From: Neocallimastix lanati (nom. inval.) | Lineage: Eukaryota; Neocallimastigomycota; Neocallimastigomycetes; Neocallimastigales; Neocallimastigaceae | NCBI GenBank assembly: GCA_016946835.1 | Contig: JACVTC010000096.1 | Span: 157,501-221,500 of the forward strand | Direction: 5' to 3' | Length of the DNA: 64,000 bases | Shown: in pieces, positions 32,553 through 59,063 of the stretch | Numbering within the stretch: the stretch's first letter is position 1 | How the letters are laid out: each line of letters starts with the position of its first letter | Notes under the pieces: model-generated | What the model was told of the DNA's origin: nothing | Seen by the model: only the letters and a program-made list of their open reading frames with translations | Database searches by the model: none | Program-made: the position numbers and the translations under genes

Positions 32553-34108
32553 TCTAGTTTTTTTGTATCTTAAGAAATCTAATAATGCTTTTTATTGAAA
32601 AAAAAAATAAAATAAGAAAAAAATATAATTTTTTTAAATATATTATTTTCAATTTAGAAACTATTATTATTATTAAAACTTAAAAATTATTATTATTATT
32701 ATTATTATTATTATTTGATATTTTTAAATATATTTATTTAAATAAGACTAATCTCTTTTATTATATGTATATTGTATTTCGATTTTTTTTTATAATAATT
32801 TTTTATTTTAATATATCATAATAATATTATAAAGTAATTTGTCTGGTAATGATATTCGTGACATTCCTTATTATTTAAATAACATCCCTAGTCTTAAATC
32901 TATGTATGTAATAACATTATTTAATCTTTAACGATATAAAAGATTAATTAATTAATTAATTAATTAATTTTATTAATAATAATAAAAAAAAAAATAAATA
33001 ATAATAAATTTTATATTATTATTCTTTAGTTTTTTTGTTTTATTATAATAAATATAATAATACTATTATAAATTTTATATTAATAATACTAATAAAAATA
33101 TATATATATATTATATTAATCTATATTAAAAAATTTAATAAAAAAAAATAATAACAAAACAGTGATTTAACTTATAATGAAAATTTATCAGGAAAAACTT
33201 TAACTAAAGAACTTGAACATTGCTATTACTATAATAGAGGAGGATATGAAAAAAATGTATGTGTAGCTAAGGAAATGAAATGTTTAAATGAATCAAGAAA
33301 TGAGAGTGAACCAAAACCAACTTACAAACCATGTGCTAGTACTTCTACAGTTCCAGTTACAACGACTACTACTAAATCATCCACTCCAACTTCTATTTCT
33401 ACTGATGGTAAATGTGGTAAGGATTATGGAAAGTGTCCATCTGGTGAATGCTGTAGTAAGTATGGTTACTGTGGTACTGGTGAAAAGTACTGTGGCACTG
33501 GATGTCAATCTGAATTTGGTCAATGTACCAAGGCAAATACTTCTGACAGTGGTAGATGTGGTAAGGGTTATGGAAAATGTCCATCTGGTGAATGTTGTAG
33601 TAAGTATGGCTACTGTGGTACTAGCGATAAGCACTGTGGTACTGGATGTCAATCTGAATTTGGTCAATGTACCAAGGCAAATACTTCTGACAGTGGTAAA
33701 TGTGGTAAGGGTTATGGAAAATGTCCATCTGGTGAATGTTGTAGTAAGTATGGTTACTGTGGTACCAGTGAAAAGTACTGTGGCACTGGATGTCAATCTG
33801 AATTTGGTCAATGTACCAAGGCAAATACTTCTGACAGTGGTAAATGTGGTAAGGGTTATGGAAAATGTCCATCTGGTGAATGCTGTAGTAAGTATGGTTA
33901 CTGTGGTACCAGTGAAAAGTACTGTGGCACTGGATGTCAATCTGAATTTGGTCAATGTACCAAGACAAACACTTCTGACAGTGGTAAATGTGGTAAGGGT
34001 TATGGAAAATGTCCATCTGGTGAATGCTGTAGTAAGTATGGTTACTGTGGTACTAGCGATAAGTACTGTGGCACTGGATGTCAATCTGAATTTGGTCAAT
34101 GTAAATGA
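29601..34108 (+). CDS. Secreted leucine-rich-repeat protein with five CBM18 chitin-binding domains, 14 exons
   Basis: Exons: 29601-29752, 29972-30052, 30265-30339, 30507-30569, 30718-30792, 30917-30994, 31258-31326, 31539-31613, 31743-31814, 31969-32031, 32133-32201, 32435-32503, 32835-32903 and 33163-34108. They sum to 1956 bases, 651 residues plus stop. Exon 1 encodes a signal peptide (MKLFNYATASILSIFVSNVLA). Exons 2-13 each encode one leucine-rich repeat of 21-27 residues. Exon 14 adds a last repeat, a Ser/Thr linker and five hevein-like CBM18 domains with CGKGYGKCPSGECCSKYGYC. Introns begin GTAA, GTTA or GTAT and end AG; all 13 are phase 2. CBM18 binds chitin. A cell-wall or surface protein is inferred; no anchor follows the last domain. 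The exon joins are my reading of splice signals. Confidence 0.85.
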
Positions 34109-46056: not shown

Positions 46057-49000
46057 TTATTTATAGTGACCTTCACAGGATTTAAGAATAACTTTTTCTC
46101 CGTCGACTTCATAAACCAGTCTATCTTTTTTGTTAATTCTTCTGGAATACCATCCTTCTTTGTCTCCTGTTAATCGTTCAACTCTGCCTATTCCTCTGAA
46201 AGGATCCTTTTTAATTTCTTCAATTAATTGATGGATTTTTTTAAATGTATTTAAATCCTTTTTTTCTAAGTTATTTAAATCTTTTTCACATTCATTCATG
46301 GAAACTTCCCAGAGATCAATTATATTCATTTTTGAAGAAAAATCTTCCATTTTATCATTTTTAAAGGAAGAAGGGACCTGTTCCATTTTGTTTTTCAGGG
46401 TGGTTTTAATGGATTCAAGATTATGGTAGAGTAATGTTTTTTTCTTCTTTTTGTTTTTTAGACTTTTAATTTTGGCCATGACAATATCCAATGCTGTTTT
46501 GTCGGACTTATCTTTAAGGGTCATCTTTGAACCTTTCTTAATTAATAATTTTACCACACGAATATGTCCATTTTCTGCTGCAGTCATCAATGCGGTTCTA
46601 TTGTCATTATTTATGGAATTAATATTGGCTTTTTTATTTAATAATTCTTCAACAATGTCAAAATAACCCTTTTTCGCCGCTTTGATCAGCGCATTATCTC
46701 CGTAAACATCTTTGAGAGAAAGATCTTCTTCATAAGAAAGTAACCATCTCACAAGATCTAGATTTCCATTGTCAGAAGCAATCATTAGAGCAGTATCGCC
46801 TGATTCGTTTCTTGCATTAATATCAAAAAGAAGATTTCCATTTTCATCCAGTAATGAATCTATTTCGTTTATGTTTCCTTGAGAAACGGCTTCCAAGAAT
46901 TTTTTATTAACTTTTTTTATTATTGATTTTTCCTTGATTTTTTTATTTTTTTTAAATGATTGGATATCTTTTTGTTTTGGTTTTGATTCCATTTTAGCTC
47001 GAATTAATTCCACTATTCTACTGTATTTTCTATATTCAGCACAATCCAAAGCGGTTTCCCCATCATCATTTTTTTGGAAAACATCAATATTCGGATGATT
47101 TAGCAATAGTTTCACTATTCTTACGTGACCATTATCTACAGCATACATTAATGGGGTTAAACCGAATAAGTCTTTGGTATTAACATCCGCCCCTTTTTCT
47201 AGTAACAATTTAACAATTTTAAAGTATCCATTATCAATAGCATTTATCAAATAAGTTGGTATAAAAAAATGATTTTGGTTAACGTCAAGTAAATAACTTT
47301 GATTAATGGTAATGCTTATTGCTTCTTGTTGAAGTATCATCTTTACGATCTCTTCATGACCTCGATGTATTGCCAAACTCAGACAAGAATGTAAATCATA
47401 TTCATTCAATTCTATATCTGATCGATTCAACCATAATTCAACGATTTCCTTATAACCACAAAATGACGCAATCATCAATGCTGTGAATCCTCTATTATAA
47501 CCAATATTGGCTTTAATATTGGGATGATTCAACAATAGCTCAACGATTTCTTTATGGTTTAGTTTCACTGCATGCATTAATGCTGTAGCTCCGTTAATAT
47601 CTTGACAATTTATGTTGATATTGGATTGTTTCAGTAAAATATCGACGATTTCTGTATGTCCGTGTATCGCAGCAATTATTAATGCGGTTTTTCCGTCATT
47701 ATCTTGATTATTTATGTTGATGCCGGGTTGTTTCAGTAAAATATCGACAATTTTTGTATGTCCTTGTGAGACAGCACTCATTAATGCAGTGCTGTTGTAA
47801 TAATAAGTCATGGCATTAATATCCGTATTTGGATATTTTAATAACAATTCAACGACTTTCGTAGACCCACTTTCTGCTGCAAGTAACAAAGCTGTGGCTC
47901 CATTATTTGATTTTTTATTAACTTCAATTTTAGGATGCTTTAGTAATAATTCAACCACTTTCCAATGACCTGACGATGATGCATGCATCAAAGCGGTTTC
48001 TCCTTCATTACTTTGCATATTAACATTAATATTTTTTTGTTTCAATAACATTTCAACGATATTTCTGAGTCCATTCATTGATGCGTCCATTAATGCTGTG
48101 TACTTTGAATTATCTTGAATATTAATATTGATTTTAGGATGTCTTAACAACATCTCTACAATTTCTTCATTGCCTTTACCAACTGCATTCATCAATGCGT
48201 TAATGCCCATTTCCCCTTTAAGGTTAACATTAATTTTAGGATGTTTTAATAATACCTCAACTATTTCTTTATATTCTATCATTGTAGCATTTATCAATGG
48301 AGTGAGACCAATTACATTTTTAATATTAACATTGATTTTTGGATGCTTTAATAACAATTCCACTGCTGATTTATGTCTATTCATTATTGCAAAGACTAAT
48401 GCGGTGTGCCCATCATTATCTTGAACATTAACATCAATATCTTTCTGACTCAACAACCATGTCATCTTTCCTATATCTCCATTCGATGCCGCAATCATTA
48501 ATGCGGTACTTCCATTATCACCTTGAAAATTAATGCCGCGATTAGATTGATTTAATAATAATTGAACAATGTCTTCATATCCAAAATGTGTGGCAAAAGT
48601 TAATGCGGTTGCTCCATTTTGATTTTGGATATTAACATCTGCATTATGTTTCACCAATAACTTCACTATTTCTTTACGTCCATTTATTATGGCATACATC
48701 AGGGGTGTTTTTCCTTCCGAATCTTGAATATTGATGTCAATAGTTGGCTTTTTCAATAACAACTCCATGACTTTGATATGTCCGTTTCTTGCGGAAAGGG
48801 ACAAGGCCGACACTCCGTTATCACTTTTTGTATTAATGTTAATATATGGTTGTTTTAACAATAACTCCACAATTTCAATAAATCTCCCTCCGCTGCCCAC
48901 ATTAAGGCCGTAACCCCGTCATTATTTTTTATATTAACGTCAATATATGGTTGTTTTAAAAATAATTCAACAACTTTAGTATATCCTTTTTCTACTGCAT

Positions 49001-49739
49001 ACATCAATGGAGGAACTCCTAGGAAATCTCTGAGGTTAACGTCAATATACGGGTGTTTTAATAGCAACTCTACTAATTTCATATGTCCTTTTTTTGCTGC
49101 ACATATCAAAGCAGTAGTATCATAGTAGAGGGTTTGGTCAGGGTTACTTACTATTGCGTTAACCTCTACCGGTGTATTTTCCAGTAATTGTTTTGCTCTT
49201 TCAAAATTTCCCATAAGAATTGTCCGTATAAATTCTATATTGGCATTTTGAATATTAATATGAAGATTCTTAAGTTTTTTGCGGGCTTTATTTGAACATT
49301 TTGTTGATGCTAAATCAATATTGGCACCACTTGTCATCAATAATAATATTTTTTTCTCATCACCGGTATCTACGGCAATAGACAATGCAGTATTTCCGTT
49401 ATGATCTTTTGCATCAATGTTGATGAGCCTGTTTCCCTTATGATCTTTAGCATTCAAAATCTGTTGAATAATTTTGATATCAGCATATTTGATAGCACAC
49501 ATCAAAATCGTCCATCCTTCTTGATTTTTTGGTGAGTTGAAACTTTTTCCATTCTGTTTCATATCAATAATTTCGGTAATCCACTCCCTTACCGTCCACG
49601 TTTTATAATCATTTGACAGTGATGTATTTTCAGATGACATTAAATTAAATAATAGATTATGTAATATTTTTGGAGGTTTTTTATCTACTTCTTTTTTTTT
49701 TTTTTTTTTAATATACTTAAGTACAAAAAGTCTTCTCAT
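46057..49739 (-). CDS. Ankyrin-repeat locus ending in a YoeB-type toxin domain
   Basis: The minus strand encodes a long array of ankyrin repeats, roughly 25 or more. The consensus is GxTALMxAxxxGHxxIVELLLKHPxIDVN, starting near 49739 with a Lys-rich N-terminus (MRRLFVLKYIKKKKKK). Ankyrin repeats bind other proteins. A Lys-rich linker follows. The last 85 residues (46060-46314) match the whole length of the YoeB family: LWEVSMNECEKDL, KDPFRGIGRVERL, GWYSRRINKKDRLVYEV and a terminal CEGHYK. YoeB proteins of bacteria are ribosome-dependent mRNA endonucleases, normally held by the YefM antitoxin. The toxin domain looks whole, while the locus as a whole appears interrupted about once in the ankyrin part. 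No YefM-like partner was seen. Transfer of the YoeB part from a bacterium is inferred. Confidence 0.75.
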
Positions 49740-52189: not shown

Positions 52190-53836
52190 TTAATTTTGAC
52201 ATTGGTGGAAATATTCATTAACTTGCTTACAAGTACCTTCGGAACAACAAGTTGGACCATTGAAACCTTGTCCGCCACATTGGCCCCAAATGGAAGCACA
52301 GTTACCATCAACTGGAGGGGCTTGTTGTTGTTCATTACCTTGTGGTGGTTGAGGACCTTGTTGTTGTTCACTACCTTGTGGTGGTTGAGGAGCTTGTTGT
52401 TGGTCATTACCTTGTGGTGGTTGTGGAGCTTGTTGTTGTTGTTCATTACTTTGTGGTGGTTGTGGAGCTTGTTGTTGATCATTACCTTGTGGTGGTTGTG
52501 GAGCTTGTTGTTGATCATTACCTTGTGGTGGTGGTGGAGCTTGTTGTTGATCATTACCTTGTGGTGGTTGTGGAGCTTGTTGTTGATCATTACCTTGTGG
52601 TGGTTGTGGAGCTTGTTGTTGTTGTTCATTACTTTGTGGTGGTTGTGGAGCTTGTTGTTGTTCATTACCTTGTGGTGGTTGTGGAGCTTGTTGTTGATCA
52701 TTACCTTGTGGTGGTGGTGGAGCTTGTTGTTGATCATTACCTTGTGGTGGTTGTGGAGCTTGTTGTTGTTCATTACCTTGTGGTGGTTGTGGAGCTTGTT
52801 GTTGTTCATTACCTTGTGGCGGTTGTGGAGCTTGTTGTTGATCATTACCTTGTGGTGGTTGTGGAGCTTGTTGTTGATCATTACCTTGTGGTGGTTGTGG
52901 AGCTTGTTGTTGTTCATTACCTTGTGGTGGTTGTGGAGCTTGTTGTTGGTCATTACCTTGTGGTGGTTGTGGTGGAGCTTGTTGTTGGTCATTACCTTGT
53001 AGTGGTTGTGGAACTTGTTGTTGATTATTACCTTCTGGTGATGGTGGAACTTGTTGTTGGTCATCACCTTGAGCTGGTGCTGTGGCTTCACCTCCTCCAT
53101 TACCATCTCCAATATAAACTTTAGCATATGGGAAATCTGCTGTACCACTGACACCTCCACTACCGTTACCAGCTTCACCTAAAACTTTGGCTTCATGTAA
53201 TTTACCCATTTTCATACCAAGCTTTTCCCATTGATCAAAGTGTGCTGAAATATCAATAGTACCACAGTCACGAGCTTGTTGACGAATACTGAAGTATTGT
53301 TTGAAAGTAGTATCTCCATCAATAGATGGTCCAGTACGAGTGTTTTCATAGACAGTATATTGAGCTCCATCAATAGTGAAAGCTCCATGTTTCTGATTAC
53401 CAACCCAATCACCTGGTGGAGATGGACTAAGCCAGTTATCAACAATGTAGTACTCAACAAGTGGATCTCTGGTCCAACCATAAACACCAACATAAGAATA
53501 TCCAACATTTGAAATATTTTGTTTAACAAGTTTGAAATCTGCCTTCATACGACCAATTTGATCTGGAGTCTTAGTACTATCAAATGAAAGACCACTACGA
53601 CATAAATAATCACCAGCACTTTGGAAAGTACAAGAGAAAGAACCATCAGAATAGAAAGTAGCACTATTATTACCACTATCAGCCCATAATTCATAACCAA
53701 CACCTCCAATACTACCAACCTTGTTACTAGTTTCCTTAACACTTTCACCAGAGTGAGTTGCAGAACTACAGAAACTTTGAGCAAGAGTAGTAGAAGCTAA
53801 AGATAAAGCAACTGGAATTAATTGAGTGAATTTCAT
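52190..53836 (-). CDS. GH11 endo-beta-1,4-xylanase with Gln/Pro linker and CBM1
   Basis: This is a 548-residue single-exon secreted enzyme that cleaves xylan. Residues 1-19 (MKFTQLIPVALSLASTTLA) are the signal peptide. Residues about 20-245 are the GH11 jelly-roll domain: Glu128 in PLVEYYIVDNW is the expected nucleophile and Glu221 in VLGEAGNGSGG the expected acid/base. The domain then has a linker of about 21 repeats of GNDQQQAPQPPQ type (residues about 255-505). The last 36 residues are a CBM1 (CASIWGQCGGQGFNGPTCC...CKQVNEYFHQCQ) with six cysteines and aromatic residues for cellulose binding. CBM1 rather than a dockerin suggests a free, not cellulosome-bound, enzyme. A near-identical paralogue lies at 57330-59063. 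GH11 genes of anaerobic fungi are thought to be of bacterial origin. Confidence 0.95.
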   Translation of the reverse strand: MKFTQLIPVALSLASTTLAQSFCSSATHSGESVKETSNKVGSIGGVGYELWADSGNNSATFYSDGSFSCTFQSAGDYLCRSGLSFDSTKTPDQIGRMKADFKLVKQNISNVGYSYVGVYGWTRDPLVEYYIVDNWLSPSPPGDWVGNQKHGAFTIDGAQYTVYENTRTGPSIDGDTTFKQYFSIRQQARDCGTIDISAHFDQWEKLGMKMGKLHEAKVLGEAGNGSGGVSGTADFPYAKVYIGDGNGGGEATAPAQGDDQQQVPPSPEGNNQQQVPQPLQGNDQQQAPPQPPQGNDQQQAPQPPQGNEQQQAPQPPQGNDQQQAPQPPQGNDQQQAPQPPQGNEQQQAPQPPQGNEQQQAPQPPQGNDQQQAPPPPQGNDQQQAPQPPQGNEQQQAPQPPQSNEQQQQAPQPPQGNDQQQAPQPPQGNDQQQAPPPPQGNDQQQAPQPPQGNDQQQAPQPPQSNEQQQQAPQPPQGNDQQQAPQPPQGSEQQQGPQPPQGNEQQQAPPVDGNCASIWGQCGGQGFNGPTCCSEGTCKQVNEYFHQCQN

Positions 53837-57329: not shown

Positions 57330-59063
57330 TTAATTTTGACATTGGTGGAAATATTCATTAACTTGCTTACATGTACCTTCGGAACAACAAGTTGGACCAT
57401 TGAAACCTTGTCCGCCACATTGGCCCCAAATGGAAGCACAGTTATCACCGGCTGGAGGGGCTTGTTGTTGTTCATTACCTTGTGGTGGTTGTGGAGCTTG
57501 TTGTTGTTGTTCATTACCTTGTGGTGGTTGAGGAGCTTGTTGTTGATCATTACCTTGTGGTGGTTGAGGAGCTTGTTGTTGTTGATCATTACCTTGTGGT
57601 GGTTGAGGATCTTGTTGTTGGTCATTACCTTATGGTGGTTGTGGAGCTTGTTGTTGTTGTTCATTACCTTGTGGTGGTTGAGGAGCTTGTTGTTGTTGTT
57701 CATTACCTTGTGGTGGTTGAGGAGCTTGTTGTTGATCATTACCTTGTGGTGGTTGAGGAGCTTGTTGTTGTTGATCATTACCTTGTGGTGGTTGAGGATC
57801 TTGTTGTTGGTCATTACCTTATGGTGGTTGTGGAGCTTGTTGTTGTTGTTCATTACCTTGTGGTGGTTGTGGAGCTTGTTGTTGGTCATTACCTTGTGGT
57901 GGTTGTGGAGCTTGTTGTTGATCATTACCTTGTGGTGGTGGTGGAGCTTGTTGTTGATCATTACCTTGTGGTGGTTGTGGAGCTTGTTGTTGTTCATTAC
58001 CTTGTGGTGGTTGTGGAGCTTGTTGTTGTTCATTACCTTGTGGTGGTTGTGGAGCTTGTTGTTGGTCATTACCTTGTGGTGGTTGAGGAGCTTGTTGTTG
58101 TTCATTACCTTGTGGTGGTTGAGGAGCTTGTTGTTGGTCATTACCTTGTGGTGGTTGAGGAGCTTGTTGTTGTTGGTCATTACCTTGTGGTGGTTGTGGT
58201 GGAGCTTGTTGTTGGTCATTACCTTGTAGTGGTTGTGGAACTTGTTGTTGATCATTACCTTCTGGTGATGGTGGAACTTGTTGTTGGTCATCACCTTGAG
58301 CTGGTGCTGTGGCTTCACCTCCTCCATTACCATCTCCAATATAAACTTTAGCATATGGGAAATCTGCTGTACCACTGACACCTCCACTACCGTTACCAGC
58401 TTCACCTAAAACTTTGGCTTCATGTAATTTACCCATTTTCATACCAAGCTTTTCCCATTGATCAAAGTGTGCTGAAATATCAATAGTACCACAATCACGA
58501 GCTTGTTGGCGAATACTGAAGTATTGTTTGAAAGTAGTATCTCCATCAATAGATGGTCCAGTACGAGTGTTTTCATAGACAGTATATTGAGCTCCATCAA
58601 TAGTGAAAGCTCCATGTTTCTGATTACCAACCCAATCACCTGGTGGAGATGGACTAAGCCAGTTATCAACAATGTAGTACTCAACAAGTGGATCTCTGGT
58701 CCAACCATAAACACCAACATAAGAATATCCAACATTTGAAATATTTTGTTTAACAAGTTTGTAATCTGCCTTCATACGACCAATTTGATCTGGAGTCTTA
58801 GTACTATCAAATGAAAGACCACTACGACATAAATAATCACCAGCACTTTGGAAAGTACAAGAGAAAGAACCATCAGAATAGAAAGTAGCACTATTATTAC
58901 CACTATCAGCCCATAATTCATAACCAACACCTCCAATACTACCAACCTTGTTACTAGTTTCCTTAACACTTTCACCAGAGTGAGTTGCAGAACTACAGAA
59001 ACTTTGAGCAAGAGTAGTAGAAACTAAAGATAAAGCAACTGGAATTAATTGAGTGAATTCCAT
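57330..59063 (-). CDS. GH11 xylanase paralogue, linker cut by two in-frame stops
   Basis: The start is 59063 (MEFTQLIPVALSLVSTTLAQ). The GH11 domain, with the same Glu residues in PLVEYYIVD and LGEAGNGSGG, is almost identical to copy 1. The open frame ends after 414 codons, within the linker, at a TAA at 57819-57821 where CAA (Gln) is expected. A second identical TAA lies at 57630-57632, 189 bases further. Beyond them the linker and a complete CBM1 (GDNCASIWGQCGGQGF ... HQCQN) stay in the same frame to 57330. The product would be a xylanase with about half the linker and no CBM1. The second residue is Glu instead of Lys, lowering the charge of the signal peptide. It may be a functional truncated enzyme or a young pseudogene. 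Confidence 0.85.

Follow-up and report, generated by a model that had tools for sequence, protein, structure and literature searches.

YoeB is a bacterial toxin that is held in check by a partner antitoxin. The gene analysed here lies in a 64,000-nucleotide stretch of fungal DNA (the window). It shares with the YefM-YoeB and Axe-Txe type II modules (PF06769, TIGR02116) a full-length YoeB domain in which Glu46, Arg65, His83 and Tyr84 are kept; unlike in these modules, the domain ends an array of ~27 ankyrin repeats, and no PF02604 antitoxin was found in the fungal assembly. A survey of toxin-antitoxin fusions describes the YoeB family as widespread in bacteria and absent from archaea, and reports 13 fusions of the RelE/ParE superfamily in eukaryotes, two of which are YefM-YoeB (PMC11980606). 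Eukaryotic records with a YoeB domain are therefore known already. Our gene resembles those fusions in this respect, but there the antitoxin is fused to the toxin, whereas here an ankyrin array stands in its place. The survey left out multidomain proteins without an antitoxin, and the word ankyrin is absent from its main text (PMC11980606).

Endosymbiont toxins that carry ankyrin repeats and have no immunity gene have been argued to be the source of latrotoxins (PMC3482391). As described there, these toxins are similar to our gene in joining an array to a C-terminal toxin part with no immunity gene noted, in being thought to aim at eukaryotes and in having moved from bacteria into a eukaryote; they differ in that latrotoxins carry another C-terminal domain and belong to spiders, whereas we find an mRNA-interferase domain in a fungus. 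The same work counts at least 13 polymorphic-toxin domains that fungi have taken from bacteria, with a possible role in conflict or incompatibility. These, too, are bacterial toxin domains in fungi, but here a whole multidomain gene is common with bacteria, and the main text of that work makes no mention of YoeB (PMC3482391). Ankyrin families are reported to be expanded in Neocallimastigomycota, their role in fungi being unstudied (PMC8778642), and the work linking Neocallimastix with toxin-antitoxin systems concerns a bacterial HicB response (PMC8406330). Within the literature searched, an ankyrin-YoeB family common to rumen bacteria and an anaerobic fungus appears new.

We propose that the gene is one of six ankyrin-YoeB genes of a gut fungus, likely derived from rumen Alphaproteobacteria, and that it would encode an intracellular, ankyrin-gated, ribosome-dependent RNase; we consider the chances of this reading as a whole to be evenly balanced. 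At issue is a eukaryote that has YoeB in six copies, of which five are open, and whose assembly yielded no PF02604 antitoxin; a likely bacterial source is at hand.

The window gene and its host

The gene occupies positions 46057-49739 of the minus strand and consists of an N-terminal module, ~27 ankyrin repeats and a C-terminal YoeB domain, distributed over two overlapping frames:

48855..49739, minus strand: 294-aa ORF with the N-terminal module and the first ankyrin repeats (ORF list, Pfam, purpose-built repeat HMM)
49200..49637, minus strand: N-terminal module common with the bacterial protein L029, 52% identity (assembly coordinates C759:206700-207137, converted via the window offset)
48855..48900, minus strand: ORF overlap of 46 bases with a single frame change (ORF list)
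46057..48900, minus strand: 947-aa ORF with the remaining ankyrin array, linker, YoeB domain and stop codon (ORF list, Pfam, repeat HMM)
46321..46377, minus strand: low-confidence linker (pLDDT under 50) from the array to the YoeB domain (residues 226-244 of a 331-aa model)
46060..46311, minus strand: YoeB domain, 84 aa (Pfam match 46063-46284)

Of nine Pfam models with a match in the 947-aa ORF, seven are of ankyrin type, one is PF06769 (YoeB) and one, TFIIE_beta, stays below its cut-off; five ankyrin-type models match the 294-aa ORF, with Ank_KRIT1 and ANK_LRRK2 below cut-off. The repeat HMM built for this analysis counted 23 ankyrin repeats in the former and 4 in the latter, in line with the 25 or more read from the letters alone in an earlier note on this DNA. 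The one interruption described in that note was recovered as well: in the assembly sequence the frame changes once, within 48855-48900, which may be either real biology or a sequencing error.

The earlier note had also placed a full-length YoeB domain at the end of the array and suggested comparing the last residues with the Pfam family, and this comparison bears it out. PF06769 aligned with residues 873-946 of the 947-aa ORF over profile positions 7-80 of 80 (69.7 bits, cut-off 27), the last 107 aa alone reached 75.2 bits (E 4e-21), and TIGR02116 (Txe/YoeB) gave 71.8-78.3 bits vs a cut-off of 51.8. The solved sequences nearest to the domain are mostly named YoeB toxins. Since a Foldseek structure search with a model of the C-terminal 331 aa yielded ankyrin proteins among the best 50 matches, the YoeB domain was modelled separately; the resulting AlphaFold model (mean pLDDT 88.7) matched solved YoeB chains with query TM scores of 0.82-0.91 (ranks 1-13). 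Residue numbers of E. coli YoeB were transferred by a gap-free alignment to chain 2a6q_E. In YoeB, Glu46 serves as general base and His83 as general acid, and activity requires Glu46, Arg59 and His83 (PMC3814384). The window copy possesses Glu46, Arg59, Arg65, His83 and Tyr84. All 12 aligned domains agree at the positions of Glu46, Arg65, His83 and Tyr84, and the Arg59 position is occupied by arginine in 10 of the 12 and by lysine in two, both fungal (L011 and L012). Profile, modelled fold and catalytic residues together assign the window domain to the YoeB/Txe family, and it is predicted to cut mRNA in a ribosome-dependent manner; the lysine at the Arg59 position in two of the six fungal copies would count against an RNase.

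The assembly comprises 199 Mb in 762 contigs. Fungal dockerins (CBM10), which we take to be a tie to the phylum Neocallimastigomycota, gave at least 150 matches (150 of 150 candidates scored, out of 1440) and none in 14 control genomes. Profile scans of 10 window ORFs, four of which had been picked for other reasons, found two GH11 ORFs (one with CBM1) and one chitin-binding ORF, the other seven being without family:

52190-53836, minus strand: GH11 xylanase ORF with a fungal CBM1 at its end, fourfold-site GC 0.05
57819-59063, minus strand: GH11 xylanase ORF, fourfold-site GC 0.03

The host is read as an anaerobic gut fungus of the Neocallimastigomycota, and the CBM10, GH11, CBM1 and chitin-binding matches agree with the eukaryotic setting that had been suspected. 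Matches to 5.8S rRNA were discarded as proof of a eukaryotic host because the same model also matches bacterial controls. GC content in the window ranges from 10 to 36% in 2-kb steps. The contigs that carry the fungal copies are 0.48-1.79 Mb long, GC in the flanks of the copies is 7-22%, and the gene is embedded in native fungal DNA. Fourfold-site GC of both GH11 ORFs is very low compared with the ankyrin-YoeB gene. An ORF with five chitin-recognition (CBM18-type) stretches was seen at 33275-34108 on the plus strand.

Copies in the fungus and relatives in rumen bacteria

A domain search of the assembly returned nine matches, of which three lie in frames that contain stops and six in long open ones. 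The six comprise the window gene and L009-L013, whose stop-to-stop frames of 1052, 1061, 1118, 1128 and 1080 codons are fully open (the first ATG in each open frame was taken as start codon). PF06769 recovered the same six copies plus decayed stretches in contigs C312 and C124, and two matches below cut-off in C83 and C72. Beyond the six copies, three or four stretches are decayed. The PF06769 search of the 199-Mb assembly found no free-standing YoeB gene, and PF05016, which covers other toxins of the YoeB fold, had no match in it. The N-terminal module of bacterial L029 occurred in the fungus only in the six copies and in the C312 stretch (best 150 of 327 candidates). No ORF of 40 aa or more was common to the 2-kb flanks of the six loci. 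Among metagenome proteins, P0007 (20 contigs from three sources) is contained in the L012 protein. P0010 (111 aa, on a contig of 1144 bases from the ncbi source) is 93% identical to the YoeB domain of the window gene and probably represents a copy from a close relative.

A scan of GTDB genomes found 30 relatives, 28 of which are YoeBs without an array in frame. The other two are ankyrin-YoeB proteins of 868 and 891 aa: L029 from the uncultured proteobacterium RUG13554 and L030 from Alphaproteobacteria bacterium RGIG8297 of water buffalo rumen. The N-terminal module of the window gene is present in L029 and partly in L030. Forty genomes of the same bacterial family, ~1.0-1.1 Mb in size, were searched; 13 had a YoeB match, with 22 matches in total. 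Four of these belong to long ankyrin proteins (frames of 876, 895, 714 and 833 codons) encoded in 3 of the 40 genomes, one lies in a 209-codon frame that runs into the end of its contig, and the other 17 are short. Each of the three fusion-bearing genomes has two secretin matches. The array had previously been taken as the mark of a eukaryotic gene; this is not supported, as the whole architecture occurs in rumen Alphaproteobacteria, and a eukaryotic origin of the fusion was discarded on that ground. The entire gene was therefore most likely imported by the fungus, and we infer from these sequences that it most likely arose in bacteria, where it encoded an exported toxin, before it moved into the fungus.

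Several further bacterial sequences were noted. The frame cut by the contig end (L107:1560-2186, minus strand, from G001:C24) has a divergent YoeB-like domain whose HY pair lacks the final Tyr, and is perhaps a fifth bacterial fusion. In L105, L106 and L107 the tail after the HY position is longer than in the fungal copies, and the divergent L106 as protein query matched only P0128 (823 of 831 residues identical). Two other long ankyrin proteins from the same bacterial genomes (L078:1434-4724, plus strand, and L080:2747-5026, minus strand) have a signal-peptide-like start and no YoeB match. The orders RF32 and Rs-D84 have been named for rumen Alphaproteobacteria (PMC8992543); no link from the present MAGs to either order was seen. 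As to possible carriers, a viral one was set aside, one of 245 pattern matches in viral contigs being a relative (37% identical over the YoeB part). Among plasmids, the C-terminal 331 aa found matches in 766 records, in no case across 80% of its length, and the best 8 of the 766 align with the ankyrin part.

In the tree of the C module (15 rows, five of them metagenome proteins without an assigned host; stars on 2 of 12 inner branches), the fungal copies fell among L029, L030 and metagenome proteins, and L105 and L106 stood outside on long branches. For the tree of both modules, 13 of the 15 rows were used: L105 and L106 were left out as they have no N module, and P0003 and P0005 entered without theirs, that of P0005 having been missed by a text pattern. 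One fungal clade was rejected by the C module (p-AU 0.033) but not by both modules (p-AU 0.205), so one or several transfers are possible.

Fourfold-site GC of the fungal copies (0.20-0.32) lies between that of bacterial (0.35-0.51) and native fungal genes (0.03-0.16). Compared with codon values from four fungal and four bacterial genes, codon usage of the copies is nearer to native fungal than to bacterial genes, except in L010 (r 0.72 to bacterial vs 0.68 to native fungal). Neutral drift simulated from L029 or L030, with donor GC assumed equal to theirs, to the fungal values produced 39-80 in-frame stops on average (60 simulations per case, with a minimum of 23 in any one), whereas the open frames have 0. 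Among the fungal copies dN/dS is 0.16-0.30 at dS 1.3-2.8, which is near saturation and makes the ratio inexact; part of this divergence may predate the transfer. The absence of stops together with dN/dS suggests, with moderate confidence, that the copies were retained under selection after transfer.

The same data bear on another account, that genes are taken up now and then from rumen bacteria, have no function and are lost over time. It would explain the interrupted window copy and the decayed stretches in C312, C124 and C83, and the rejection of a single clade in the C-module tree is what repeated capture predicts. However, five copies of 1052-1128 codons are fully open although their base composition has shifted part-way, far from the dozens of stops to be expected without selection, and with both modules one clade is not rejected. 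We consider this account unlikely. The idea that the locus is a relic does not suit the gene family, five of whose six members are open, and stands for the window copy in so far as it is interrupted and further pieces are decayed.

Export, restraint and alternative readings

The four bacterial fusions, as well as P0005 and P0006, all start with MKK and a hydrophobic stretch. The hydropathy maximum of the start is 1.86-2.26 in the bacterial fusions vs at most 1.22 in the six fungal copies, although a value of 1.99 was also obtained for P0003, whose start lies within the array; hydropathy alone is thus no test for a signal peptide. Judged by hydrophobicity, none of the six fungal copies has a signal-peptide-like start. 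A hidden signal-peptide exon was sought and rejected, as the 600 bases upstream of L009-L013 hold none and are low-complexity A+T. The bacterial ankyrin-YoeB proteins are predicted to be exported toxins. Since the export start is missing, the fungal proteins are predicted to stay inside the cell.

Ankyrin arrays are a usual means of binding eukaryotic proteins, and an antitoxin is superfluous for a cell whose toxin is exported; a similar argument has been made for endosymbiont toxins with ankyrin repeats (PMC3482391). The bacterial array would thus serve to direct the exported protein to a eukaryotic target cell. For the fungus, we infer a different use: the array would bind a protein partner and hold the RNase back until an invader protein or a stress partner engages it. 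The freed YoeB domain would then enter the ribosomal A site and cut mRNA by the Glu46/His83 chemistry of YoeB, and translation would stop. YoeB is lethal in Arabidopsis (PMC4430920) and RelE is harmful in yeast and human cells (PMC4773802), which makes action on eukaryotic ribosomes plausible. The low-confidence linker in the model would fit a tethered domain but is no proof of restraint by the array. A wider version is tentative and, as a whole, rather unlikely: anaerobic fungi might possess an antitoxin-free, ankyrin-gated suicide or defence RNase derived from a bacterial mRNA interferase directed at hosts; it would be encoded by several genes with conserved ends, whose differing arrays would sense intruders and trigger translation shutdown, as a eukaryotic counterpart of abortive-infection toxins.

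An intracellular location would also suit a protein that strikes a grazing ciliate or a competitor once the fungal cell has been eaten or lysed. All six fungal copies being without an export start fits this, and there is a precedent in latrotoxins, described as ankyrin-bearing, without conventional secretion and derived from endosymbiont toxins (PMC3482391). Yet nothing in the data here demonstrates release or entry into another cell, and a ribosome-directed RNase would endanger its producer first. We consider such a weapon improbable.

The gated RNase that we favour raises the matter of restraint. PF02604 had no match in the 199-Mb fungal assembly, and the same search was positive in 8 of 14 control genomes; this extends to the whole assembly what had been noted for the locus, that no antitoxin is visible. 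On the bacterial side, the search for PF02604 covered 11 of the 13 genomes having a YoeB match. Six of the 11 contain it, at seven sites that all lie 35-83 bases away from a YoeB domain, but G001, G002 and G037, the three genomes with ankyrin-YoeB fusions, gave no match. Among the 13 short YoeBs of the 11 genomes, seven have an adjacent PF02604 and six, including two in G002, also have none, so the absence of PF02604 is weak, only suggestive evidence, and other antitoxin families or contig ends may conceal partners. A fungus without the usual antitoxin would have to control or exploit the toxin by other means.

Such a cell could instead keep the protein as a scaffold, with the array as binding part and the YoeB domain enzymatically idle. 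The lysine in L011 and L012 and the absence of the PF02604-family antitoxin would be expected under this alternative, but the other four positions are invariant in 12 of 12 domains and the YoeB part is conserved no less than the array; we regard it as very doubtful. Contamination could in principle affect either side, with bacterial sequence in the assembly of the fungus or fungal sequence in the bacterial MAGs; MAGs can be contaminated, and L029 sits on a contig of 7.5 kb. This account is hardly credible, given the long, GC-poor contigs of the fungal copies, the fungal genes near the window copy, the 43.7-kb contig of L030 with bacterial GC, argS-like and other bacterial ORFs (named from translations), and two further bacterial fusions on other contigs.

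With these genes in a eukaryote and their likely bacterial source at hand, two questions come within reach: by what means a eukaryotic cell would live with, or make use of, an RNase that depends on the ribosome, and whether the little-known small-genome rumen Alphaproteobacteria attack ciliates or fungi with ankyrin-aimed toxins. Directly after the ankyrin-YoeB stop in L030, we observed a second ankyrin frame of 286 codons (L030:6259-7116, plus strand), which may encode either an ankyrin protein of its own or a partner that restrains the toxin.
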